Positions 7,228 through 18,436 of a stretch of DNA of 20,902 nt are shown piece by piece. The stretch is from a virus: positions 1 to 20,902 of the IMG/VR virus record IMGVR_UViG_3300006810_000512; one strand, written 5' to 3'. The translations under genes were made by a program, and so were the position numbers. The first letter of the stretch is position 1, and each line of letters begins with the position of its first letter. Below the pieces are notes generated by a model. The model did no database searches, had not been told where the DNA came from, and saw only the letters and a program-made list of their open reading frames with translations.

Positions 7228-7611
7228 TCAATCAAGTTCTTGGCTATCACTTAATTTCATTTTCCAATTTGATATTTCAAGTTTTCCTAGTGGCTTTTCG
7301 ATGTCCATGTCGGCAAGTCTTTCATTCTGGATAACCAATTTTGTGCCGCCGTATATAACGCCATCTCTTATCTCATACAGAAAGAAAGTGCTCTTTGTGA
7401 TACCAACACGGACAAGCCTTCCGGGTCTTCCATTGACGATCACAATGTCGTCTTCGTTGTAATCGTTTCCCAGAAAGACGAATATCCCAGCAACAAGTTT
7501 CTCAAGAGTTGACTTGAAAATAAGTGTTAATAGACCAGCAAAAAGTAACCAAGAATTATCCTTTATGAAATGCTCAACCGCGTTCTTCAGAACCGTTGTT
7601 TCGTTTTCCAT
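7228..7611 (-). CDS. Miniature MscS-like protein (one membrane segment plus beta domain)
   Basis: A 127-residue protein. Residues about 20-47 form one hydrophobic segment ending KLVAGIFVFL, like the end of TM3 in MscS. It is followed by a domain (about 48-107) that follows the MscS beta-domain pattern: a D-D-I-V-I strand (DDIVIVNG), GRLVRVGITKST in place of the usual 'G-x-V-x-x-I-x-x-x-x-T', then IQNERL in place of 'I-P-N-S-x-L'. Full MscS channels have about 280 residues, three membrane helices and a C-terminal domain; here only the last helix and the beta ring remain. A good Shine-Dalgarno (AAGGA) lies 6 bases before the ATG. It could form a small membrane ring or pore, or interact with host MscS; both are inferences. 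Its start overlaps the preceding gene by 38 bases. Confidence 0.62.
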   Translation of the reverse strand: MENETTVLKNAVEHFIKDNSWLLFAGLLTLIFKSTLEKLVAGIFVFLGNDYNEDDIVIVNGRPGRLVRVGITKSTFFLYEIRDGVIYGGTKLVIQNERLADMDIEKPLGKLEISNWKMKLSDSQELD

Positions 7612-8290
7612 TTGTTTCCTTTTGGATCATAGTTGACTCTTCATCACTATCCATATCCAATTCAGAACGGAATGGCATTGGCTTGGTTGCAATGGAACCC
7701 GCCACAGTAGTTTCCTCCACATCACTTTCAGTCACGTAGATTTTTTGTAAAGTGTTACGATGCTCGACTTCAAAAACCGAGACATCAAAAATGGTCCCCA
7801 CGGGTTGTGGTCTGTGAACCTCAACAAGTGTTCCCTTGAAGGCAAGCAACTCACCAGTCATTGGCAGTGCAATATCATGCTTCAATTGATACATACCTTC
7901 GGGGAGGTAACCACCATCATCGACCAAGAGCCAACTCTCGCTCAGGTCCAGTTTCGTGGGGTCGATACCATAGGCTTCTTGTAGAATTCCCTTGATATCA
8001 TCGTCCTCCAAATCTGTATTTTCCTTGATCAACCAGAAGGCAGCAAGGTAACGGGCAATGGTCGATTTGCCCAATGGGATTTTTGCAAGCAGACGACGAA
8101 TATTGAATACCAGACGATGAAAGATTGTGTATGCTTCCTTCTCTTCCTTTGTCTCTGGTTTCTTGAGACGTTCTCCGTTCATGTCCACAACACCAGCCTT
8201 GTATGCTGCTGTCTTTTCCCAAGGCATTGTCAGGAGTCGAAGAAACCTCAATGCATAAACCGTATCTGCGCCTCTAAGTAGTAGTCCCAT
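7574..8290 (-). CDS. Conserved T4-like marine phage protein, function unknown
   Basis: A 238-residue protein starting MGLLLRGADTVYALRFLRLL. I recognise the style of its N-terminus (arginine/leucine-rich opening, then a TPWEKT/PWEKTAAYK-type segment, then FHRLVFNIRRLLAKIPLGKS) as one that recurs in T4-like marine phages, but I know no function. The middle has a long helical part; residues about 125-205 look beta-rich; the last 35 residues are charged and low in complexity (SDEESTMIQKETNGKRNNG) and overlap the start of the MscS-like gene. AGGA lies 8 bases before the ATG. It is separated from the preceding gene by one base. Confidence 0.7.
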   Translation of the reverse strand: MGLLLRGADTVYALRFLRLLTMPWEKTAAYKAGVVDMNGERLKKPETKEEKEAYTIFHRLVFNIRRLLAKIPLGKSTIARYLAAFWLIKENTDLEDDDIKGILQEAYGIDPTKLDLSESWLLVDDGGYLPEGMYQLKHDIALPMTGELLAFKGTLVEVHRPQPVGTIFDVSVFEVEHRNTLQKIYVTESDVEETTVAGSIATKPMPFRSELDMDSDEESTMIQKETNGKRNNGSEERG

Positions 8291-8291
8291 T

Positions 8292-8660
8292 TTAAATTTC
8301 CTGTAGTTCTTTTGCGATTTGTAAATCGACCTTTGTGTTTCCCTGTTGGCTCTCTGGCAGATAGTTCAGGAAGATTAAGAATGTCTTGAGCACTGAGTGC
8401 AAGTCATCATCAATCTTAAAGAACATCATTTTGTTTGCAGCAGAGATGTCATACACATTGTAGATGGTGATGATATGATTCAGCACCAGCCTTGTATTTA
8501 TCTCATTCGTATCTTTGTATTTTCTTAGCAATCGAAGGACATAACTAAACCGACTCATGTCCTCATAAAAGTCTTTTATGTCTAGACACTGATTATTTCG
8601 ATAGTGCCTTGCAGCATATAGTTCAAAGTTTTTAGATGTAAGCTCATCAAATAATCTCAC
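8292..8660 (-). CDS. Conserved small phage protein, function unknown
   Basis: A 122-residue protein starting with GTG at 8660 (MRLFDELTSKNFELYAARHY). The start is chosen because the following residues match a recurring small-protein opening (M-x-x-F-D-E-L-T) in T4-like marine phages and no ATG lies nearby. The protein is mainly helical with the segments SRFSYVLRLLRKYK, VLNHIITIYNVYD and LKTFLIFLNYLPE. No catalytic motif, membrane segment or signal peptide is obvious. It lies between a membrane protein and another conserved unknown, in a row of small co-oriented genes. Function unassigned. Confidence 0.65.
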   Translation of the reverse strand: MRLFDELTSKNFELYAARHYRNNQCLDIKDFYEDMSRFSYVLRLLRKYKDTNEINTRLVLNHIITIYNVYDISAANKMMFFKIDDDLHSVLKTFLIFLNYLPESQQGNTKVDLQIAKELQEI

Positions 8661-8664
8661 GAAT

Positions 8665-8937
8665 CTATTTATGAAACAAATTAAACCATGCAGTCACAAA
8701 TGCCCCGGCAATCGCGACAAAGAAAGCAACCACGGTATTAAAGAATCCCTTTTGAAACCTGAGATTCTCTTTCTGCTCAACCTCAAGTTTATTGATTCGA
8801 TACTCATTGGTCTGGTTCTTCTCGATCATTCTTCTGGTATGTTTCTCAAGGTTGCTGACCTTCTCTTCGGTCCTCACACTTGTAACCAGTAACGATTCAA
8901 TCTTCTCTTCCAGTTTGTTAAAACGATCTTCAGTCAT
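8665..8937 (-). CDS. XhlA-like small membrane protein: coiled coil plus C-terminal transmembrane helix
   Basis: A 90-residue protein. Residues about 5-60 are charged with heptad-spaced Leu/Val/Ile (FNKLEEKIESLL, KVSNLEKH, RINKLEVEQ), as in a coiled coil. Residues about 65-85 (FFNTVVAFFVAIAGAFVTAW) form one transmembrane helix, followed by a short positively charged tail. This order and length match the XhlA (hemolysin) group of phage membrane proteins that assist holin-dependent lysis. No endolysin lies beside it in the window, so a lysis role is only a suggestion; a membrane anchor for another phage protein is equally possible. The start overlaps the preceding stop by 8 bases. Confidence 0.6.
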   Translation of the reverse strand: MTEDRFNKLEEKIESLLVTSVRTEEKVSNLEKHTRRMIEKNQTNEYRINKLEVEQKENLRFQKGFFNTVVAFFVAIAGAFVTAWFNLFHK

Positions 8938-9205
8938 TATTTTCAGTGATTTGTATTTTCAGTTCCGTTGCATTTTCACCCTTCATCAATCGATGATATA
9001 AGTCCCTCTCAATGCTATAGGTTTTTCCGACAACCAACTCAATCGGCATTTGATTGTCGAACTGAAGAAACCAATCAGTCCCATTCAGTATCGTGACCTC
9101 TCTGTTCCTTCTGTCTCTATGCCATACCAGTTCATCACTATTTACATCAGCACAAAAGCATCTTTCAATGCTCTGGTCTTCACGAATCGTATCAGTATAG
9201 GGCAT
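8930..9205 (-). CDS. Small conserved protein, function unknown
   Basis: A 91-residue protein (MPYTDTIREDQSIERCFC...). It appears to be mostly beta-structure: ELVWHRDRRNREVTIL, DWFLQFD, and IELVVGKTYSIERDLYHRL, ending in KIQITEND-like strands. The central W-H-x-D-x-x-x-R and W-F-L-Q-F-D pattern with a following P-I-E-L is reminiscent of cupin-like small phage proteins, but metal ligands cannot be confirmed. Two cysteines lie at residues 16 and 18. It is separated by two bases from the gene upstream and overlaps the XhlA-like gene downstream. No function is proposed. Confidence 0.6.
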   Translation of the reverse strand: MPYTDTIREDQSIERCFCADVNSDELVWHRDRRNREVTILNGTDWFLQFDNQMPIELVVGKTYSIERDLYHRLMKGENATELKIQITENND

Positions 9206-9207
9206 TA

Positions 9208-9732
9208 TTACCAGAAGAACTTACCGCCGCCCTCAAGACCCAATGCCTTGGCGAACCACGGCAAACGACAAGACCAATAACTTGGTTTTGTCTTATCATT
9301 TCTTGTCTCACACTTATGTCTTGCTGCGAAATTCTTACGTGCCTCTGGATCGTTAATCTTTGCTTGCAAACCAGAGGTATCACCAAACTCTACTTTGATG
9401 ACATTGCCTTTGTCATTCTTGACATAGACATAAAACTTCTTGTTACCTCCACGTTTGGGTTTCTCTAACTCAGGTTCTTTTTGTTCCTCAATCATAGGAA
9501 CATCAAGAGGCACATCCTTACCCTCATAGACCCCCATAAGACCAATATCTGAATCTAGTAGGGTTTTGTCTTGTGAGTCTAGGAGGGCAGGATCAAGATT
9601 ACGTGCCTCCTGAAAGAACAGAAGGTATGCTTCAGAACCAATGCGAAAAATGTTGTCAGAGAAAGGTATCGAGTTCTCTAGGTGATAGTCGATACCCTCT
9701 CTGACAACTTCATATTGGTCGAAATCAATCAT
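9208..9732 (-). CDS. Two-module late phage protein with a C-terminal ARHxC/WSC domain
   Basis: A 174-residue protein whose start overlaps the preceding stop as ATGA. The N-terminal part (about 10-45) reads REGIDYHLENSIPFSDNIFR then IGSEAYLLFF. After it come a short GVYEGKDVPLDVPM segment (67-80) and a charged linker with repeated Glu, Pro and Lys. The C-terminal module (about 97-160) has KKFYVYVKNDKGNVIKVEFG, then ARHKC (C141) and YWSCR (C155). I have seen this C-terminal pattern recur in T4-like marine phages without a known function; the two cysteines suggest a small metal site or a disulfide. It lacks the internal-protein leader seen upstream in the operon. It may be a virion component by association only. 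Confidence 0.62.
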   Translation of the reverse strand: MIDFDQYEVVREGIDYHLENSIPFSDNIFRIGSEAYLLFFQEARNLDPALLDSQDKTLLDSDIGLMGVYEGKDVPLDVPMIEEQKEPELEKPKRGGNKKFYVYVKNDKGNVIKVEFGDTSGLQAKINDPEARKNFAARHKCETRNDKTKPSYWSCRLPWFAKALGLEGGGKFFW

Positions 9733-9974
9733 CTTTGACGAATCTCTCTGAAGGACTTCTTCTTAGACTCAACCTGTTGTCTCTTCTTGGAAACCATGTA
9801 GTCACGGGCTGAATCAAGATAGTCAGTAGCCTTGGTGATTTTGGACTGAACCCACTCAGGGAGATTCTCATCATCACTCAGTAGCGCATGGAGTTGCTTG
9901 GCAGCATCTTCAATAGTTCTGAGTTGAGTCTTTGCCATCTCACCCTCATAGTCGTATTCGTTAGGATCTTTCAT
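9729..9974 (-). CDS. Small helical protein, recurring phage module
   Basis: An 81-residue, nearly all-helical protein: YEGEMAKTQLRTIEDAAKQL, a short acidic turn, then LPEWVQSKITKATDYLDSAR and a basic tail. The Y-E-G-E-M-A-K-x-Q-L and L-P-x-W-V-Q-S-K-I signatures are ones I recognise as a small module repeated, alone or fused, in T4-like marine phages; its role is not known to me. It ends with an ATGA overlap to the next gene, and 11 bases separate it from the large modular protein upstream. Its gene position in the late block makes a structural or chaperone role possible. Confidence 0.65.
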   Translation of the reverse strand: MKDPNEYDYEGEMAKTQLRTIEDAAKQLHALLSDDENLPEWVQSKITKATDYLDSARDYMVSKKRQQVESKKKSFREIRQR

Positions 9975-9985
9975 TGTTTATTTGC

Positions 9986-12304
9986 TTACGAAATGTAGGC
10001 ATTCAACTCATAGCGTCCAGATTCCAGACCATAGACCTGAAACGAAACAACCTTGCGAGTTGGCTTACCACCCTTTTCAAGTTCAAGAGTGAAGCTGTTT
10101 GTCTTGCCAGCAGAAGGCTTGCGAGGACCACTTGAAACATTGGTGAACCAGAGGTCTTCGTCAACCTTGTATCCATTTCGAGCAACAAGGTCCAGAACTT
10201 CACTCAAGGCAGAAGTGTATGAGTCATGGTAGATCTCGTAGTCACTCTTGGACTTGCGCTTTTCTTCCAACTCCTCAGTGGACTCTTCAATCTCTTCCTT
10301 GACATGACTCACAGAAACAGCACCGATTGCCTCGTATTTTTGAACTTCAAGGGGCTTGTCAACACCTTCGACCTTTTCCTCTTCATCATCCGCATCGCTA
10401 ATGCCCTTGATCATCTTCTTTGCCTTCTCATAGGCAAGTTTGCGAATCTTCTCACGAAATTCACGACGACGAGCATCGAGTCTTTCAGTCTCTTCAGGAA
10501 GGTTATCAACTACTTTGTATCCAGTGGTTGTATCCAATGTAGCGAGCATATCATCTTCATCGGGATGATTGTCGTCATCAGCAGCAGCTTCGGCATCAGG
10601 GATGGTATCCAAGATGCTGGCAACGATTTCCTCTTCTTCCTCTTCAGTAAGATCAAGTTCAGTCTCCTCGCTAATACCCATTCCCTTCAGCGTATCAGTG
10701 AGATTCTGCATCCAGAAACCCAGAGTATTCTTGGCGAACTTCTTCTTGCTCTTCTCAACTTCTTGGTCGGTCTTGGCTTGATCGGCAACAGCAAAGGAGT
10801 GGAAGTAATCAAAGGCAGCATCACTGGTATTGAACTTCTTGTTCAGGTCAATCTTTGCCTCTTCCAACTCCTCAGTGGATTCCCTGCGAGCCTTTCGGAT
10901 ATCTTTTTTAGCGGTCTTGATATCCTTTTTCAATTGTTTAGAACGTCTGATTTCGCTTGATTTACTTTTCAGTTTCTTGAGTTTCTTGGCGCGAGCATCA
11001 TTTCTACCTTTACGAGTCAAGAATCTCTTAGCACCCTTTTTAATCAGGTTACCAATAAGCCCTTCTTCAACATCACCCTCATCATCTTCCAACTCATCAG
11101 TGGATTCTGAAATGTCTTGCACATCCAACACATAGATTTTCGAGTATTTTTTGTGACCCGAATCGACGGCAATATAGAAGTCATCATCATAATCACCTTT
11201 TCTGAGATCAGCAACTGCCTTCTCAACTCCATCATGAGAAATCGTTAAGACCACATTTGCATCAGGGTGGTTTATGATCTGCTTATCAGTCAACTTGGGC
11301 TTCTTCTTACCTTCTCCCAAATCTTCAGTAGATTCTTCCAACTCCTCAACTGATTCAAGTTTCTCTGATTCATCGATGCTATACTTCGACATGAAAAAGT
11401 AGCCGCCAGTGTCATTCTTGTCAATAGCAGCCACATGACGGTCTCCATCGAATGGGTGAATCCAGAGGGCATCCCCAGACTTCACCTTGGTCTTAACTGA
11501 ATGCATCTTACCTCTAATGATGTGCTCCCCGCGACTTTTGGCTTTCGTCCACTTCTTGCTATCAGGTTTGATGTCAAAGATCGATTTCGCTGACTCTTTG
11601 ACCGGCTTGCCGTCTTTAGAGATGATGCCACGATAACCTTCAGCTTCACGGTCACTCAGGAACTTCTTCGCCTTGTCTAAAGTCATGAACTTGGTCACCT
11701 GAATTGGACCGCGCTTACTCTTGGCATATTTAACATGAAAGTCTGGTGTTTGCTCTTCCAACTCCTCAACTGATTCTTCAACAGAGGCATATCCTTTAGC
11801 AGCAGGAACCAAAACTTTATCATAGAAGTTCCTTGCTCCACCGATCCAACCCCACCCATCAGTTGACTTCTTGCCACCATGCTTCTTAGCCAAATTGATG
11901 AACGCATCAAGACCGGGACCAGAACCCCTATACGATTTCACGGCATCATCAAAAGAGGGGGGATTGGTAAAGTCTTCATCATCAAAGACTTTGTTTGAAG
12001 TCAACCACTTATAGGCATCTTTACCCGAAATCTTTGCTGCCTCTTCCAATTCAACGGATTCATTCTTCTCAGGCTTCTCATCATCACCCTTCCAACCAGC
12101 ATCAATCTCATCAAAGAACTTCTTCTTGTCATCACCCTTAAGTTCAGATGGTGATTTCACACCATACTTTTTCAGAGTGTCATTGAAGAACTTCTGATAG
12201 GCTTCCTTGTCGCCGGTGGCTTCTTCAATCGCTTCTACAGACTCCCCAGCCATGATTCGCTTGGCAGTCTCTGCTAGTTTTTTTGTAAGTTCGTCGTTAT
12301 ACAT
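9986..12304 (-). CDS. Large modular late protein with repeated ES(T/V)EELEE linkers (predicted processed polyprotein)
   Basis: A 772-residue protein made of about eight short modules separated by near-identical acidic linkers. Linkers are at about 82-88 (ESVELEE), 177-184 (ESVEELEE), 317-324 (ESVEELEE), 400-407 (ESTDELED), 475-482 (ESTEELEE) and 674-681 (ESTEELEE), with a further acidic run at 545-559. Modules include an N-terminal helical one (1-72, with FFNDTLKKYGVKSPSEL), 90-172, 185-236, 240-312, 334-398, a very basic one (413-474, ARAKKLKKLK...KKDIRKARR), 484-543, 560-635, and a C-terminal domain (688-772, GPRKPSAGKTNSF and YELNAYI). Each main linker holds L-x-E, the cleavage motif of T4-type prohead protease, so I infer a precursor cut into small capsid-internal proteins. 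It has no Shine-Dalgarno and no internal-protein leader. The alternative is an uncut scaffold or a chain of independently acting domains. Confidence 0.8.
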   Translation of the reverse strand: MYNDELTKKLAETAKRIMAGESVEAIEEATGDKEAYQKFFNDTLKKYGVKSPSELKGDDKKKFFDEIDAGWKGDDEKPEKNESVELEEAAKISGKDAYKWLTSNKVFDDEDFTNPPSFDDAVKSYRGSGPGLDAFINLAKKHGGKKSTDGWGWIGGARNFYDKVLVPAAKGYASVEESVEELEEQTPDFHVKYAKSKRGPIQVTKFMTLDKAKKFLSDREAEGYRGIISKDGKPVKESAKSIFDIKPDSKKWTKAKSRGEHIIRGKMHSVKTKVKSGDALWIHPFDGDRHVAAIDKNDTGGYFFMSKYSIDESEKLESVEELEESTEDLGEGKKKPKLTDKQIINHPDANVVLTISHDGVEKAVADLRKGDYDDDFYIAVDSGHKKYSKIYVLDVQDISESTDELEDDEGDVEEGLIGNLIKKGAKRFLTRKGRNDARAKKLKKLKSKSSEIRRSKQLKKDIKTAKKDIRKARRESTEELEEAKIDLNKKFNTSDAAFDYFHSFAVADQAKTDQEVEKSKKKFAKNTLGFWMQNLTDTLKGMGISEETELDLTEEEEEEIVASILDTIPDAEAAADDDNHPDEDDMLATLDTTTGYKVVDNLPEETERLDARRREFREKIRKLAYEKAKKMIKGISDADDEEEKVEGVDKPLEVQKYEAIGAVSVSHVKEEIEESTEELEEKRKSKSDYEIYHDSYTSALSEVLDLVARNGYKVDEDLWFTNVSSGPRKPSAGKTNSFTLELEKGGKPTRKVVSFQVYGLESGRYELNAYIS
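10265..12059 (-). repeat. Dispersed 18-base linker repeats in the modular protein gene
   Basis: Copies (plus-strand reading TTCCAACTCCTCAGTGGA or close variants) lie at 10265-10282, 10862-10879, 11087-11104, 11336-11353, 11756-11773, with a shorter, more diverged one at 12044-12059. Another copy lies in a different gene at 15782-15799. Two sub-forms exist, one ending CAGTGGA (encoding EST) and one ending CAACTGA (encoding ESV). Each marks a module boundary. Bases are conserved even at synonymous positions (the Glu-Glu-Leu codons are GAG GAG TTG in nearly every copy), which points to copying or recombination and not only protein-level selection. Confidence 0.85.
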
Positions 12305-12316
12305 GCTACTATTTAG

Positions 12317-12991
12317 TTATTTGAGTTTTGAGAGTTGGATAGTCTTCTTTACAGCATCCTTTGGAATATGTGAGACTGCATAGTTACCGGGATCTCTTGG
12401 TTCTAGATTGGGGAGCTTCTTGCGATCCAGAACAAGAAGATATCCTTCTCCAGTGTCACGATATGCCACCAGAGCAAAGCGTCCAGCAAGGTGAACATTG
12501 TCAGCAACATATGAACCATCAATGTCACTGGTGTTCCCCTTGCCTTTAGATTTTACTGCACCCTTACGAGTCAGCACATTGTATTCAGCACCAGAGATTC
12601 CACGATAAACCTCTGACTTGCTGCTCTTGAGTTTATTGAGTTTCTCTGTGATAGTGCGAAGGTCACCTTCTGGTTCCCAGATCAGGAAGTCTTCTACCTT
12701 GGATTCGTTAAGGTCAAATCCTTTATATCCAAGTCTTTTATTCATCAACTTGACCGCATCCTTATAGCTCAAGTCTTTTTTTACGTATGCCCATGATGAG
12801 CGAATCCCACCACGAACCTTGCCATCATAATTCTGTTTCAGAACCCAGACATAATAACCACCCTCTTCTTTTGGTCTGCCATCAAGTCTACTGTCTCTAC
12901 CGAATGCATATGTTTTTCCACTTTTTGCTTTTGTGGCAGTCTTCTGATAGACAGAGGCTCCTTCAGAAATATATTCAATGAATGTTTTCAT
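12317..12991 (-). CDS. Internal-head-protein-like precursor with ADP-ribosyltransferase-like domain
   Basis: A 224-residue protein. The open frame extends 7 codons further up, but ATG at 12991 is chosen because it makes an ATGA overlap with the preceding stop and gives a leader MKTFIEYISE, matching the capsid-targeting leader of T4 IPIII (MKTYQEFIAE) including (I/L)-x-E at residues 8-10. A first domain (about 25-90) has KTYAFGRDSRLDGR and GGYYVWVLKQNYDG. The second (about 126-222) reads EVYRGISGAEYNVL, NTSDIDGSYVADNVHLAGRF, AY, and GYLLVLDRKKLP. This order (Y-R-G strand, Ser-rich loop, helix 'HLAGRFA', strand) resembles ADP-ribosyltransferases, but the catalytic Glu cannot be assigned with confidence. 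T4 packages the ADP-ribosyltransferase Alt in its head, so such cargo would have precedent. Function is an inference. Confidence 0.7.
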   Translation of the reverse strand: MKTFIEYISEGASVYQKTATKAKSGKTYAFGRDSRLDGRPKEEGGYYVWVLKQNYDGKVRGGIRSSWAYVKKDLSYKDAVKLMNKRLGYKGFDLNESKVEDFLIWEPEGDLRTITEKLNKLKSSKSEVYRGISGAEYNVLTRKGAVKSKGKGNTSDIDGSYVADNVHLAGRFALVAYRDTGEGYLLVLDRKKLPNLEPRDPGNYAVSHIPKDAVKKTIQLSKLK

Positions 12992-13647
12992 GCTCCCTTG
13001 TGTTTCTTCCATAGGTCAGCATCAGTTGTCTTCTGAGTCTTTCCACCAGTGACAAATGAATTCACCCTAGCTAAACCCCACTGTTCAGGAGTAGTGCCGG
13101 GTCGATGACCAGTTCTCCATGCACCTACACCCCTCTTATAGACATCCCAGAGAATATCAAAGGCAATTCCACTACCATCTGCCTTATTCTGGACTGCCTT
13201 CTTGGGATTTGATTCCGCGAGTTCTGATTCTTCTTTCTTAGTCATCGAACGGTCTTGCCAATCATATGAAACCTTGTCATCAGTGATCGGTCCACCTTTT
13301 GCCCATGTGGTGCAAGTGCGAGCAGAGTGACACTTGAAGTGATGCATCCAGCAGTATCCAAGTTCACCATCATCATCAGATGTTTCACCGGGCATACAGT
13401 CTTTCATACGAGCACTGATATCAAATGCAACACAATTGGCGCACACTGATTTCTTTGCTGCTTCAACAGAGGTATCCCACTTCTTTGCAATCTTCTCCCA
13501 ATAGTCACCCGGTTCATCTACATTCAAGGGACCATAGGCAAACTGCTTGGTTGTGGCATCACGATTCTTTGTGTTGAGTTTTACATCCTGTGTCGCTGGT
13601 GGACAAGGGTGTTCTTTTTCGGTAAGATATTCAGTGAACGATTTCAT
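12988..13647 (-). CDS. Internal-head-protein-like precursor with cysteine cluster and C-terminal AWRTGHRPG domain
   Basis: A 219-residue protein with ATGA overlaps on both sides. The leader MKSFTEYLTE has L-x-E at residues 8-10. The centre has six spaced cysteines (C69, C72, C84, C99, C106, C112) within CANC, a C-x-PG turn, and GYCWMHHFKC. The first four have spacings C-x2-C-x11-C-x14-C, and PG plus the G-Y-C pattern resembles high-potential iron-sulfur proteins; a zinc site is the alternative. A Glu/Ser-rich linker with LAE (139-146) separates the C-terminal domain (about 148-219): AFDILWDVYKRGVGAWRTGH, RPGTTPEQWG, FVTGGKTQKTTDADLW. I have seen that C-terminal pattern recur in large-virus and phage proteins (similar to domain family DUF5872, from memory). 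No enzyme activity is assigned. Confidence 0.68.
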   Translation of the reverse strand: MKSFTEYLTEKEHPCPPATQDVKLNTKNRDATTKQFAYGPLNVDEPGDYWEKIAKKWDTSVEAAKKSVCANCVAFDISARMKDCMPGETSDDDGELGYCWMHHFKCHSARTCTTWAKGGPITDDKVSYDWQDRSMTKKEESELAESNPKKAVQNKADGSGIAFDILWDVYKRGVGAWRTGHRPGTTPEQWGLARVNSFVTGGKTQKTTDADLWKKHKGA

Positions 13648-15458
13648 TTCTTTTTCCCATAGAGTTGCTGATACTTCTTTGTGTATCTGGAAGGCTTGGT
13701 CTTGGCAGACGCATCACCGGGAGCGGGTTTGTAAGCAGATGGGTCATCTGTTGCTTTCTTTGTCTGCTTCTTGAAGTGAGATGAGCGACTCTTCTTGGTG
13801 CTCTTTGCCATCTCATCGCCCTCTGCATCCTTGGCATAGTAACGGTCTGGTCCTTGAAGGTCATCTTCTTCTTTTTCTTCTTCCAATCCAGCTTCACGAG
13901 GGTTTCGTGTCCTTCGCTCAAGGTATCTGGTGAGGTCAGGAGTAGGAACGATCTTCGGGCGAACCCCAAACGAGGGGTTCGCCTTGTTTGTTGCCTTGTC
14001 CCTCTTGCCGCTAGAAAGATACTCGAAATGTCTGGGATAAGCCTTTGCCAGACCTCTGAGTCCCGCTAGTGTAGTGTTCAGGGCAAGTGCAATATCATCG
14101 GCATCCACGGTGTTCTCTCGCTGCCAGAGCTTGATCAACTCCCTTGCCATCTGCTGCTTCGGGTTTGGAGCAGACTCATTCACCGCAAGATTTGCCAGCT
14201 TGTCCTTGAGCCGCATCATCATCCGCCTTTTGGTTCCTGAGACTTCCAGCCCATACCGACTCCCATAGTCATCCTCCAGCTTCTTGATCAGACTCCGTGC
14301 CTGTTCCTTACTCAAGACCAGCTTGCCCCTTTCCAAAGAAAACCAACCATCCTCCAGACCCAGAACTTCATGTCCCCATGTGGAGGCAGTGGCATCCAGT
14401 TCAGATATCTGGGCGTTGCTCAATTTGACTGTGATGGTTCCTCCTGCCTTGGGATCAAGTTTTTCTTCAATGGGTTGAAGGTCATCTTCTTTTTCTTCTT
14501 CCAATCCAGCTTCACGACGAGCAGAATAGTATGCAGCAAGTGCCATATCGATTCTCTTCTTCTTGTCCTTACCCTTGAACTGAGGGGCATCAGACTTCAC
14601 GAAGTCATCAATCCATGTATCAACATCTGCCTTGGGATCAAGTTTCTCTTCGATGGGTTGAAGGTCTTCCAACCAACATTTGAAGGTCACCTTTTCATTA
14701 TTCTCACAAACCACAAAATTAGGTTTGCGTTCGACCACTCTGAGTTCTACACCCGCCTTTGTGACACGATCACCGACATTGAAGAGTTTACCCTCAGTGT
14801 ATTGTTCACGGATATCACTTACCTTTGGAAGTGCGATGTGTTTTCGAAAGATAAAGGACTCTTTGAGACCCATACCCTTACGAATGGCATTCAAGAGTTC
14901 TTGGACTTCTCCAAAGTTCTTGGGAAGACCAGTGGCGAATAGTTCCAGATCGTTATCCGCTGCTGCGGCACGCATCTTGGATGCTGACATTCCAGAAACA
15001 CCCTCTGCATCAGGATCTCTTTCACCAGCAGAGATAACCTGAATACCATCCTTGAAGTTGTAGAATCCATCCTTTCTTTCCTTGCCGTTGTATTTGTTCA
15101 ACAAGAGCTTGAACTCATTCACACGGTCAGAACCAGCAACATAGACGAATTCTGTATACCCTTCCTTGTATGCACGATCAGCAATATGAAGTGCAATCTT
15201 GACATTCTTGTCCATGTAGATGTTACGAGCATGTTTTGGAAACATCTTACGCATGAACTTCACCTTGTCATTATAACTCAGTGGATTCTTCTTTGCGTCC
15301 TGTGACTGAGAAGGATAAATCTGGTAATCATTCTTACCAGCAACCTTGGCAACCTTATCAATGAGCTTCTGATGCCCAATGGTAGGTGGATTGAAGCGAC
15401 CGAAGGCAGTCACCAAGGTCTTCTTCTTTTCTTCTGTAAACTGACTGAACGATTTCAT
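13644..15458 (-). CDS. Internal-head-protein-like precursor with cytidylyltransferase-fold domain and duplicated C-terminal modules
   Basis: A 604-residue multidomain protein with ATGA overlaps at both ends. The leader is MKSFSQFTEE; unlike its neighbours it lacks Ile/Leu three residues before the Glu. Residues about 14-195 form a nucleotidyltransferase of the cytidylyltransferase/NMNAT type: AFGRFNPPTIGH carries the G-x-F-x-P-x-x-x-G-H box (H29), FVYVAGSDR the base-binding strand, and SGMSASKMR the late S-x-S-x-x-R box. A short SH3-like stretch follows (about 228-265, VGDRVTKAGVELRVVER). Then a module (278-315, WIDDFVKSDAPQFKGK) and a 182-residue module (339-520) each sit between copies of the same flanks (DLQPIEEKLDPKA and REAGLEEEKE). 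The C-terminus (535-604) is basic. All nucleotidyltransferase motifs are intact, so an enzyme making or using NMN/CDP-type nucleotides is plausible; the substrate is unknown. Confidence 0.82.
   Translation of the reverse strand: MKSFSQFTEEKKKTLVTAFGRFNPPTIGHQKLIDKVAKVAGKNDYQIYPSQSQDAKKNPLSYNDKVKFMRKMFPKHARNIYMDKNVKIALHIADRAYKEGYTEFVYVAGSDRVNEFKLLLNKYNGKERKDGFYNFKDGIQVISAGERDPDAEGVSGMSASKMRAAAADNDLELFATGLPKNFGEVQELLNAIRKGMGLKESFIFRKHIALPKVSDIREQYTEGKLFNVGDRVTKAGVELRVVERKPNFVVCENNEKVTFKCWLEDLQPIEEKLDPKADVDTWIDDFVKSDAPQFKGKDKKKRIDMALAAYYSARREAGLEEEKEDDLQPIEEKLDPKAGGTITVKLSNAQISELDATASTWGHEVLGLEDGWFSLERGKLVLSKEQARSLIKKLEDDYGSRYGLEVSGTKRRMMMRLKDKLANLAVNESAPNPKQQMARELIKLWQRENTVDADDIALALNTTLAGLRGLAKAYPRHFEYLSSGKRDKATNKANPSFGVRPKIVPTPDLTRYLERRTRNPREAGLEEEKEEDDLQGPDRYYAKDAEGDEMAKSTKKSRSSHFKKQTKKATDDPSAYKPAPGDASAKTKPSRYTKKYQQLYGKKK
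13854..13899 (-). repeat. Direct repeat A, second copy (first copy 14475-14517)
   Basis: This 46-base block recurs at 14475-14517 (43 bases), identical except for a 3-base indel. It encodes REAGLEEEKE(E)DDLQ. Together with repeat B it brackets the 182-residue module at 13900-14444. Confidence 0.88.
13958..13983. repeat. 10-bp perfect inverted repeat inside coding sequence
   Basis: GGCGAACCCC and its exact complement GGGGTTCGCC flank a 6-base loop. It lies within the extra module of the nucleotidyltransferase-like gene and codes for ANPSFGVR. No T run follows on either strand, so it is not a standard terminator. It may be a strong mRNA hairpin, a leftover recombination site, or chance. Confidence 0.6.
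14445..14483 (-). repeat. Direct repeat B (second copy 14628-14666)
   Basis: A 39-base block encoding DLQPIEEKLDPKA, present twice with only two base differences. It overlaps repeat A at 14475-14483. The order in the gene is B, small module, A/B, large module, A, as expected from tandem duplication or recombination between related genes with different modules. Confidence 0.88.
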
Positions 15459-16210
15459 TCTTCACTCTTTTTCTTGCCCTTCTCCTGTTCGGCTTTCTTC
15501 AACTGAGGAAGGAGCTTCTTGGCAATACGATTAATGCCACCCTGCATCTTATCTAGTTTCTTTTCGATGCGTTCTTGTTCACCAGCAGAAACATCAGCAC
15601 GGTTTCTACCCTTCAACAGCTTGGTGTATAGAAGGTCTCTTGCTTTCTTCTTGGCACGTTTCTGAAGTGTTTCGGTTGAAGCTTTCTTATTCTTACCCCT
15701 CTTGAGAGCACGTTGAATCTTTGCCTTGTTACGCTTGGCAATCTGCGAACGCTTGATACGTTGTGCGCGAGTCAGTGCTTCATCCAACTCCTCAGTGGAT
15801 TCTGAAATTCCGAGCTTCTTCAATTCTTTGGAAATCTTCCCTTTGAGATCAGTCGCCTTCTTGAAAGCGTGTTTAGGCATCATCCCTTTGTTCTTATAGA
15901 GGTTGAAAAAGTCATTGAGGAATGCAGAAGCCGAAGAAAGGTAATCCTTTTCCTTGTTGACCTTAAACCAACCCCAATATTGTTCTGCTTTATTCAAAAA
16001 GGACTCACCTTTGAAAGCCTCCTCTTCTAACTCAGTCTCTTCCTTCATCAACCTATCAATCTTGCTCTGAATCATCTTCTTGTATCCCTCGATGCCACCA
16101 TAGTTCTTGGCAATCTTGGGATCAGGATTCTTGAGAAGTGCTTTCAGATCTGCAATGTCTTCTTGCTTGGATTCGTTAATTTCGTTTCTGATCTCTTTGA
16201 TTGATTTCAT
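15455..16210 (-). CDS. Basic modular late protein with ES(T)EELDE linker
   Basis: A 251-residue protein with an ATGA overlap to the next gene and one base after the preceding stop. Its start MKSIKEIRNEINES is a diverged form of the leader (I-N-E at residues 11-13). Three modules follow: about 15-56 (helical), 65-135 (ESFLNKAEQYWGWFKVNK..., helical) and 146-251, a very basic helical domain (RAQRIKRSQIAKRNKAKIQ, TLQKRAKKKARDLL, IAKKLLPQLKKAE). They are separated by ETELEEE (58-64) and ESTEELDE (137-144), the same linker found repeatedly in the 772-residue protein. I have seen the C-terminal pattern in T4-like marine phages. The basic nature suits DNA binding inside the head. Function is otherwise unknown. 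Confidence 0.7.
   Translation of the reverse strand: MKSIKEIRNEINESKQEDIADLKALLKNPDPKIAKNYGGIEGYKKMIQSKIDRLMKEETELEEEAFKGESFLNKAEQYWGWFKVNKEKDYLSSASAFLNDFFNLYKNKGMMPKHAFKKATDLKGKISKELKKLGISESTEELDEALTRAQRIKRSQIAKRNKAKIQRALKRGKNKKASTETLQKRAKKKARDLLYTKLLKGRNRADVSAGEQERIEKKLDKMQGGINRIAKKLLPQLKKAEQEKGKKKSEE
15782..15799 (-). repeat. Linker repeat copy in the basic modular protein gene
   Basis: This plus-strand 18-base block (ATCCAACTCCTCAGTGGA) differs by one base, in its first position, from the copies at 10265-10282 and 10862-10879, some 5 kb away in another gene. It encodes the ESTEELDE linker at a module boundary, linking the two proteins at DNA level. Confidence 0.85.
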
Positions 16211-16211
16211 T

Positions 16212-17447
16212 CTAGTGTTCCCATCCTTTGATGATATCTGGTGAAAAATTGTTCATGGAGAATTCCAGTCTATCCACCAGTTTGACTGCTCCACCACCGA
16301 TCTTATCGATTGCCACAAATCCTTCCTGACCTGTGACACGAAATCCATTCTTTGTGCGAACGAAGGTATCCAGTTTTTTGAGGTCATCAAGTTTTGCAAT
16401 GATAAGTTTCTTTGCCACAACTACTGCATTCTGCAATTGAAAAACCAAGTCAAGGTTCTTCTGGTTTTCCGGTGAGAAGAACTTCAGGAATTCATCTCTT
16501 CTCTGTTCGACACCAGCCTTACCTTTCTCGGTCTTTCTCTTTTCTGCTTCTTTGGCATATTTATCATTGACCCAAGCAATCATGTTCTGGACATGCTTCT
16601 TGGTATTCGTTACCTCTTCACCCCTACGGACATAGGTGTTATTGAATGTCTCAATCGTCTTTGCAAGCTCAGGGTCACCTTCAATCTGACGAAGAGTAGA
16701 ACCAGAAATCTTCTGGAAGATCTTACCAGCAGTAGAGAGTGCTTTCTGAACCTTTGCAGTATCACTGGAATTCAGGAGTGCTTTACCAGAGATGTCACGA
16801 AGACCAGCATCTTGAAACCAGACACTTGGTGTTTGCTTGAGCTTCGATGCATCCACATCATAGGAAGCAGTCATGGACTCAAAGTCTTTACCTGCATATG
16901 CAGTATGAAAGACCACACCAAGATTGGCTTTGGAAATCTGTTTACCCAAGGCACTGCTTGCAGGAACCGCATACACAATGGTATTGGGTTGAAAGGTCAG
17001 GTAGGATTCACCATCAATGGTTTCTTTCTTCAGGTCACTCTTCGTGAACATGATGTCCCCTTGAATGACTCCCTTGATACCAAGCTTGGGAAGTTCAGCA
17101 AGGGCAACTTTCATCTTTGCTGCAAGGTCACCAGACATATCTGCATCAATCTCTGCATCTGTCTTGTAGACCTTTGGCTCCTTGTTAAAGATACCCTTCT
17201 TGGCAACAAAGAACTTACCATCTCTTGGATCTTGACCAGCAAAAACAGCAGGAGCACCATCCCACTTCACGGTAATGTCAACCTCCTTGGATGAGTTACC
17301 AGCAAGCATATCTCTCAGAGAACGAAGAGCAAGAATAGCTTGGCGAGCACCAGAGACACCACCATAGATTACCTGATCTTCAATATGAGTCATGTGGGTA
17401 TTCTTACCCACTGCTGCTTCGGAAATGAAGTCAAGGAAGGTGTTCAT
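16212..17447 (-). CDS. Internal-head-protein-like precursor with ligase-type nucleotidyltransferase domain
   Basis: A 411-residue protein. The frame extends 6 codons up to a GTG, but ATG at 17447 gives the leader MNTFLDFISE, like those of its neighbours, and leaves one base after the preceding stop. Residues 61-64 read KWDG in VKWDGAPAVF, the motif I of ATP-dependent DNA/RNA ligases and capping enzymes, where the Lys (K61) becomes AMP- or GMP-linked. Later motifs also fit: QGDIMF (129-134), VVFHTAY (about 178-184), EGFV (375-378, motif IV) and VKLVDRLEF (about 388-396, motif V). Between them is a long helical insert. From memory this matches a conserved phage family known only as a DUF (DUF6267). 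The motifs imply a covalent-nucleotidyl mechanism; the substrate, RNA, DNA or protein, is unknown. It could act after injection. Confidence 0.75.
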   Translation of the reverse strand: MNTFLDFISEAAVGKNTHMTHIEDQVIYGGVSGARQAILALRSLRDMLAGNSSKEVDITVKWDGAPAVFAGQDPRDGKFFVAKKGIFNKEPKVYKTDAEIDADMSGDLAAKMKVALAELPKLGIKGVIQGDIMFTKSDLKKETIDGESYLTFQPNTIVYAVPASSALGKQISKANLGVVFHTAYAGKDFESMTASYDVDASKLKQTPSVWFQDAGLRDISGKALLNSSDTAKVQKALSTAGKIFQKISGSTLRQIEGDPELAKTIETFNNTYVRRGEEVTNTKKHVQNMIAWVNDKYAKEAEKRKTEKGKAGVEQRRDEFLKFFSPENQKNLDLVFQLQNAVVVAKKLIIAKLDDLKKLDTFVRTKNGFRVTGQEGFVAIDKIGGGAVKLVDRLEFSMNNFSPDIIKGWEH

Positions 17448-17448
17448 A

Positions 17449-18387
17449 TCACCAAGGGTCTCCACTGAGTTTAAGAGACGATGCCATCTTTTCAGATTCG
17501 AATTTGAATCGAATCTTCATGATTTTCTTGGGACCAGCCTTTACTCCAATAGACTCATTTCCAATTGGCTCAAGTTCAATATCATTCTTAGAAAAAGCAG
17601 AAAGCTTATCGTTCTTGAGTGGGTCCATTGTTACTGCCTTATATGGTGCCTTTTTACCTTGTCCAGTAACTTTAACATATGGAGGATAAAGAACTTCAGC
17701 GTCCATCCAGTCATCTAAAAGATACTTTTTCAAAGAGGCTTGGTCAAACTGAAGAAGACGCTTTAGGAGGATATCGCGGAACTCTCGCATGGTTGTGACA
17801 CCAGCTTCGATTGTCTGCTTTTGGATATCCTTATTGGAGCGGATAAATTGTTTCCTCGCTTTGGTTGAGGGAGGAAGGTCAAGTCGTCGGATAGTATCTT
17901 CGGTGACATCCTTGAGAGTTGCGGCGAAGGAAGTGTTCAGGCTTCTGTCAATAGTTCCAATGCCGGGATTTTTGAAACCGATATCACCCTTGCTCTTCGT
18001 GGCTTTTGCAGATAGACCAAGAAACCCATTAGCAGGACCATCAGCAAATCGAATAAGAACATCAGTGGGATTCTTCTTCTGGTTGACTTCTTGACCAACT
18101 GCCTTGGTCATTGAGTTTGGTCTTGCGGTCCACCAGACTTGAGTGGGTTTACCTTTATAACCCGCTTTCTTTGCCCATTTAAGAAAATCAACTGCCATTG
18201 CCTCTGCCTTACCTTTGGCATCTTCAACAGCAGCAGGTGAAGCTTGTTTTATTCTTTCTTCAAACTGCCTTCTTGCATCAGCATCAAACCAGCGATTTCC
18301 AGCAAGGACGTATCCAACCCAAATTTCATTGATGTCTGCTAGAATTGTGTTGGCAGATTCCGTTAGGTATTCTTTAAAAGATAGCAT
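17449..18387 (-). CDS. Internal-head-protein-like precursor with PD-(D/E)XK-like features
   Basis: A 312-residue protein, first gene behind the late promoter. The frame also has an ATG three codons upstream (18396), but 18387 gives the leader MLSFKEYLTE with L-x-E at 8-10, as in the neighbours. Residues 14-30 form a helix with E21 in INEIWVGYVLAG. D109 in NPTDVLIRF is followed by FLGLSAKAT, whose S-x-K (K128) is about 17 residues after D109. A helix Glu, a strand Asp and a strand (D/E/S)-x-K is the layout of the PD-(D/E)XK nuclease superfamily, but here Ser replaces the second acid. The middle (about 168-215) is helical and rich in basic residues; the C-terminus is beta-rich. A nuclease role is only suggested. 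A host-DNA or restriction-related role after injection is possible. Confidence 0.65.
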   Translation of the reverse strand: MLSFKEYLTESANTILADINEIWVGYVLAGNRWFDADARRQFEERIKQASPAAVEDAKGKAEAMAVDFLKWAKKAGYKGKPTQVWWTARPNSMTKAVGQEVNQKKNPTDVLIRFADGPANGFLGLSAKATKSKGDIGFKNPGIGTIDRSLNTSFAATLKDVTEDTIRRLDLPPSTKARKQFIRSNKDIQKQTIEAGVTTMREFRDILLKRLLQFDQASLKKYLLDDWMDAEVLYPPYVKVTGQGKKAPYKAVTMDPLKNDKLSAFSKNDIELEPIGNESIGVKAGPKKIMKIRFKFESEKMASSLKLSGDPW

Positions 18388-18428: not shown

Positions 18429-18436
18429 TATTTATA
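18429..18436 (-). promoter_or_regulatory. T4-type late promoter (TATAAATA)
   Basis: On the minus strand TATAAATAG lies in the 57-base gap (or 66 to the preferred start) between the helicase gene and the first internal-protein-like gene. It is a perfect match to the T4 late -10 consensus TATAAATA, which is used by T4 gp55 with gp45 and host polymerase and needs no -35 box. It precedes the whole late block and fits its role as virion-protein operon. No other exact match was noticed upstream of a gene. Confidence 0.78.

Follow-up and report, generated by a model that had tools for sequence, protein, structure and literature searches.

Predicted capsid-targeting leaders and modular head cargo in a probable late operon of a marine T4-like phage

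Six consecutive genes on one strand of a 20.9-kb viral fragment (here, the window) begin with leaders of about 10 residues that resemble the capsid-targeting sequences (CTS) of phage T4, whereas the protein domains behind the leaders differ from gene to gene. This raises the question of whether the operon encodes proteins that are addressed to the phage head and, if so, in which form they would be carried there.

Leaders and head assembly genes

All six open reading frames and their leaders, as listed by a first-pass annotation of the sequence, are present, and the leadered genes are all on the minus strand. The leaders start at 18387 (MLSFKEYLTE, protein F), 17447 (MNTFLDFISE, E), 16210 (MKSIKEIRNEINE, D), 15458 (MKSFSQFTEE, C), 13647 (MKSFTEYLTE, B), and 12991 (MKTFIEYISE, A). 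Longer in-frame starts are available for three of the frames (18396, 17465, and 13012), in which the leader Met is nevertheless the likely start codon because orthologues align from it. Five of the six leaders end in (I/L)-x-E, at residues 8 to 10 in four of them and as INE at residues 11 to 13 in one, and MKSFSQFTEE, the leader of the cytidylyltransferase, is without it. An aromatic or large hydrophobic residue occupies positions 4 and 7 in all six (Ile at both in MKSIKEI).

Two contigs were used to represent the remainder of the genome because of their identity to the window: G002 (58.9 kb), with 99.93% identity over 20,390 bases, and G001 (119 kb), which covers most of the window in pieces of 94 to 99% identity (84% for one piece). 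When the N termini of about 150 G001 genes were ranked with the T4 IPII/IPIII leader alone as query, five of the six operon leaders took ranks 1 to 5 (scores of 28, 23, 23, 20, and 19), against 17 for the best other gene and 17 for the best of 768 internal Met decamers; the sixth (MKSIKELRNE in G001) scored 11 and does not stand out by this measure. A strict rule, M..[FY]..[FY][ILMVF].E, fits four of the six leaders of the window; it also fits 1 internal Met decamer among 1523 and none of the 142 other genes. Among distinct leaders of the family to which protein E belongs (DUF6267), 29 of 29 keep the two aromatics, F..[FY], and a hydrophobic-x-E; 25 fit F..[FY][ILVF].E, and in the other 4 the hydrophobic-x-E is shifted by up to 3 residues. 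In T4, residues 4 and 7 have been mapped to targeting and residues 8 and 10 to processing (PMC9026906), and these are the positions conserved in all 29. The resemblance of the six-gene leader set to T4 capsid-targeting leaders is real and beyond chance.

The cytidylyltransferase leader is a special case. Its relatives in the clade of the window retain the targeting aromatics (29 of 32) and have F-x-E, with the I/L of the processing site missing from nearly all of them, whereas cyanophage versions read FLTE, FLNE, or FLKE. Its processing is therefore uncertain, and the cytidylyltransferase of this clade may be targeted but left uncut.

Homologues of the head assembly proteins are found elsewhere in the genome, as judged from the 99.93%-identical contig. 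G002 encodes a gp21 prohead protease (PF03420, 7e-45) and a gp23 major capsid protein (1e-113), and on both contigs gp21 (PF03420) and gp23 (PF07068) adjoin a gp22-like acidic protein (scaffold), with the portal gene also adjoining this block on G001. Lack of a prohead protease, which would have refuted the initial packaging proposal, does not apply because gp21 is present on G002. The gp23 of G002 has SNFITE/E at the position of GSFLTE/A in T4 gp23. The phage is T4-like and marine; by DUF6267, its nearest cultured relatives are phage C48C1 and Methylophilales phage Melnitz, cyanophages being more distant.

A promoter had been placed ahead of the gene set, and a sequence scan locates the T4-type late promoter motif TATAAATA at 18429-18436 on the minus strand, its one occurrence in the window (0.48 expected). 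In G001 the motif has a strand bias of 12:2 and precedes not only the leadered operon but also genes for the tail tube, the portal, and the sheath. Judging from these positions before the operon and structural genes, the operon is probably expressed late.

Two regions outside the operon were recorded in passing. A gene block of G001 (about 37878-45744, L089-L090) resembles a bacterial chromosome inside the phage contig, since by eye its proteins look DUF1501-like and c-type cytochrome/DUF1549-like, as in planctomycetes; either a particle contained host DNA or the assembly is chimeric. In the window, the adjacent minus-strand genes at 224-1033 and 1030-1869 encode clearly related proteins, a tandem duplication within an apparent sugar or surface-modification cluster.

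Proteins of the operon

Protein C (13644..15458, minus strand) consists of the leader MKSFSQFTEE, a cytidylyltransferase/NMNAT-like domain, and further modules with IEE and LEE linkers. The cytidylyltransferase-type domain, named as such in the first-pass annotation, matches PF01467 (7e-7) and PHROG 395 (4.5e-70), and by these matches it is secure at the family level. In contig L112 (3313-5214), the cytidylyltransferase is followed by an SIEE/G junction and a zeta-toxin-like P-loop kinase module (PF06414, 4e-9) that replaces the module of the window.

Protein E (16212..17447, minus strand) carries DUF6267 (PF19782, 6e-107), with ligase-like KxDG motifs, behind the leader MNTFLDFISE. DUF6267 is present in 463 phage records, and the motifs KWDG, QGD, EGFV, and KL, which we take to be those of ligase-type nucleotidyltransferases, are invariant in 25 relatives. 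A PDB fold search with a DUF6267 model of moderate quality (pLDDT of 74) gave no solved-structure match, and the significant fold matches were viral predicted structures, mostly of the same family or of cytidyltransferase fusions. The ligase-type reading is thus suggested by the invariant motifs, and the fold search did not confirm it.

Two further enzyme labels found no support in the searches. Protein F (17449..18387, minus strand), the leader MLSFKEYLTE followed by 302 residues, is a putative nuclease; it has no Pfam, PDB, or cultured-phage match that would support its PD-(D/E)XK label, and a weak D...SxK pattern is common to it and a 22%-identical protein of phage Melnitz. Protein A (12317..12991, minus strand) is composed of the leader MKTFIEYISE, a PHROG 24586 domain, a DLNE/S junction, and a C-terminal domain that is a separate 151-residue protein in L112. 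The ADP-ribosyltransferase-like label of that C-terminal domain likewise finds no Pfam, PDB, or phage match in its favor, and a single-sequence structure model of protein A (pLDDT of 45) is too poor to use. A match of protein A in Sinorhizobium phage phiM12 was set aside, as it covers the N-terminal domain behind the leader only and has no comparable leader.

The remaining proteins are modular. Protein B (12988..13647, minus strand) does have the Cys-rich domain ascribed to it, between the leader MKSFTEYLTE and an ELAE/S junction, and it ends in DUF5824 (PF19141, 3e-15), which is a separate gene in G001 (leader MKTLRQIREA) and in phage C48C1 (with its own leader). The modules of protein D (15455..16210, minus strand) are basic, and LEE and LDE linkers lie within the protein; its module composition differs in G001 and in contig L012, the middle and end modules being those that differ between the window and G001. 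The next gene beyond the operon, that of protein G (9986..12304, minus strand), is modular like the operon proteins: it encodes 772 residues with repeated ES(V/T)EELEE linkers and an atypical N terminus, contains a 34-nucleotide repeat in 7 copies, and corresponds to 633 residues with different modules in G001. Apart from weak matches of NMNAT type, PADLOC and NCBIfam gave neither defence nor functional names, and by Pfam none of the seven proteins matched a hallmark domain of polyvalent proteins such as MPTase, ParB, or MuF. NAD-related chemistry for part of the cargo set is a reasonable guess, no more.

Modules and linkers

In protein G, and over part of the length of A, B, C, and D, small modules are strung together by linkers that end in L/I-x-E and are mostly acidic (ESVEELEE, ESTEELDE, AGLEE, DLNE, and ELAE). 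These protease-like linkers and the shuffling of the modules had been missed in the first-pass annotation. Between the window and G001, modules are gained or lost at L/I-x-E linkers, and contigs L112 and L107 have reshuffled modules with the linkers DLDE, EVELDE, and HLEE. Alignment breakpoints lie within 8 residues of L/I-x-E in 23 of 50 cases, against 12 expected (P = 4e-4, for points that are not independent).

The same module start may follow a leader or a linker. SKVEDFL stands after DLNE in protein A of the window and after HLEE in L112; in G001, NPKKAVQ stands after the leader MKTLRQIREA, and in protein B of the window it is preceded by SELAES; SK(Q/K)EDI stands after the leader end NEINE in protein D of the window and after NDITE in L012. 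A 47-residue module (GDKEAYQKFF...) occurs at 80 IMG/VR loci; among 50 distinct contexts, 24 have a strict [LI]xE no more than 12 residues upstream (background, 10%), and 30 have an E with A or G next to it within 6 residues (background, 12%), many contexts being x-E-A without I/L. In 11 contexts this module is directly behind a leader (for example, MIVNFKTFLSE/AS and MKSFKEMLE/AS). Because one module start follows a leader or a linker depending on the phage, we read these genes as encoding polyproteins; if gp21 cuts at both, the mature module would be identical whichever encoding is used.

It is possible, at somewhat less than even odds, that head targeting is real and that the L/I-x-E linkers are no more than acidic, flexible hinges and scars left by recombination, in which case the modular proteins stay whole. 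The seven-copy DNA repeat in the gene of protein G by itself favors module exchange, and L/I-x-E is a short motif in E-rich proteins. However, linkers as unlike as STEELEE, EVELDE, HLEES, DLNES, and NDITES have mainly [LI]xE in common, and the same module begins right behind a leader in one phage and behind a linker in another.

Matches of the GDKEAYQKFF module extend to Vibrio, Tenacibaculum, Erwinia, and Pseudomonas phages; in large phages of the first two genera it also lies in genes annotated as DNA ligase I. Modules are added outside the operon as well, because the L112 orthologue (11279-12394) of the minus-strand window gene at 7574-8290 has extra C-terminal modules behind a DDLEE linker.

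Virion detection in related phages and the proposed cargo system

Virion proteomics is available for the particles of relatives, namely, phages S-CREM2, S-SM1, and S-SCSM1. In S-CREM2, 52 of 219 proteins were detected by virion mass spectrometry (PMC10665884, Table 3). The four proteins that fit the strict leader rule were all among them (Fisher P = 0.003 at the base rate of 52/219), a value that is somewhat optimistic because the exact form of the rule was picked after the score ranking had been seen. They are the SAM hydrolase gp6 (MKDFDSFLEE), the kinase gp14 (MKRFDAFLTE), gp136 (MQTFSMFFSE), and the cytidylyltransferase gp154 (MKNFSSFLTE). By T4-leader score, five of the six best S-CREM2 proteins were detected, including the SAM hydrolase, the kinase, and the cytidylyltransferase, while the best-scoring leader (MSTYEEYQAK) belongs to a protein that was not. 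A rank test of leader score versus detection over all S-CREM2 genes gave no separation (P = 0.90), which is expected because the majority of the proteins in a virion belong to the tail or the shell. The cytidylyltransferase of S-SM1 is also a virion protein (PMC3037559) and begins with MKKFSAFLNEA. In S-SCSM1, NMNAT, gp89, gp90, gp92, and gp93 are annotated as virion proteins (PMC9602691); the NMNAT leader is MKSFLQFLKEA, and gp92 carries an EEVELDE linker. The S-SCSM1 NMNAT block lies between mazG and the primase/nrdA genes, a family neighborhood shared with S-SM1.

Some further proteins have leader-like stretches elsewhere. The Cas9 of S-CREM2 (L115; gp12, 7704-10313 on the minus strand of OR473000) was detected in the virion and has LRFASFMAEA at about residues 17 to 26, which suggests that it may be packaged and addressed by the same type of signal. 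Leader-like C-terminal stretches occur in S-SCSM1 gp93 (RTFKEFLEYIE; L203:16627-16836) and in a protein of L107 (115-1572; WSFKEFVDQIQEG), and these may be targeting signals at the C terminus, where T4 Alt, too, is cut.

Whether such proteins are cargo or parts of the head is a separate matter. That the operon proteins are prohead core or structural parts like T4 gp67, gp68, and IPIII, rather than enzymes delivered to the host, seems unlikely to us: several modules are indeed small, basic, and without a fold match, and T4 IPIII influences head assembly (PMC9026906), but the cytidylyltransferase and the conserved KxDG-motif protein are enzyme-like, and in S-CREM2 the same class of leader is found on a SAM hydrolase, a kinase, and a cytidylyltransferase. 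Very improbable is an N-terminal motif for another interaction partner, combined with carry-over of abundant late proteins into the virions of relatives; co-purification was raised by the authors of the S-CREM2 (PMC10665884) and S-SCSM1 (PMC9602691) studies themselves, yet the conserved positions are those mapped in T4 to capsid targeting and processing, and this phage carries the same motif at its own gp23 site. Because the targeting leader is shared, we favor packaging over co-purification as the reading of virion detection in these relatives.

We therefore consider it probable (about 0.8) that the operon encodes head cargo addressed by targeting leaders, partly in the form of polyproteins cut by gp21. 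The late operon would encode proteins addressed to the prohead interior, the leader of about 10 residues with its aromatics at positions 4 and 7 would bind the scaffold core during head assembly, and gp21 would cut after hydrophobic-x-E, so that the leader is removed and the proteins stay in the head. Cargo such as the NMNAT/cytidylyltransferase, the ligase-like DUF6267 protein, and others would then enter the host with the DNA. Because the linkers carry the same L/I-x-E motif, gp21 may also release the modules of linker-joined cargo individually. The basis in the sequence is the leaders, their conservation, the presence of gp21, gp22, and gp23 in the phage, and the linkers at module junctions; from it we infer that the leaders target the proteins, that both leaders and linkers are cut, and that the products are ejected into the host. 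The packaged multienzyme set first proposed thus holds up with respect to the leaders, the three assembly proteins, the late motif, and virion detection in relatives, and its ADP-ribosyltransferase and PD-(D/E)XK labels gained no support from the searches.

The mechanism appears to be that of T4, and the kind of system is to that extent already known; the modular, linker-joined cargo appears to be the part that is new. T4 IPI to IPIII and Alt, which have a CTS and are cut by gp21, share with the operon proteins the leader of about 10 residues, the aromatics at positions 4 and 7, I/L-x-E, the co-occurrence with gp21, gp22, and gp23, and the late promoter motif. In contrast, the mature domains of the window are unrelated to them, at least six leadered genes form one operon, and several of the proteins are multimodular with repeated internal I/L-x-E linkers. 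The cyanophage virion cytidylyltransferase/NMNAT (T4-GC190), detected in virions of S-SM1, S-SCSM1, and S-CREM2, has an orthologous catalytic domain (PHROG 395) and a similar genome neighborhood (in cyanophages, between gp41 and nrdA), but the leader in the clade of the window lacks the usual processing residue. A limited literature search found no link drawn between T4-GC190 and a targeting leader, none tying capsid-targeting sequences to cyanophage-type phages, and no description of such linkers. In the phiKZ-like phages SPN3US and 201phi2-1, a prohead protease processes many head proteins, ejection proteins among them, behind a short x-E motif; these phages form a different group, and in the accounts consulted their proteins are not described as strings of modules that can be exchanged. 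Polyvalent proteins (Iyer et al. 2017) are likewise multidomain and predicted to be packaged and injected, whereas the window proteins matched none of their hallmark domains and have small modules split by protease-like linkers.

With even odds, we propose that marine T4-like phages possess a plug-in cargo system of capsid-addressed polyproteins, in which exchangeable modules are joined at prohead protease sites, one leader loads many effector domains, gp21 releases them in the head, and effectors are swapped by recombination at the linkers. T4-like phages are abundant in the sea, and enzymes in their virion surveys have been ascribed to packaging or contamination. With a leader rule that can be read from sequence, packaging would become something to predict and test across hundreds of genomes, and the Cas9, SAM hydrolase, and kinase of S-CREM2 would be among the cases. 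If true, the linker hypothesis would extend the known roles of the prohead protease to a polyprotein strategy and would account for the differences in operon domains between near-identical phages.
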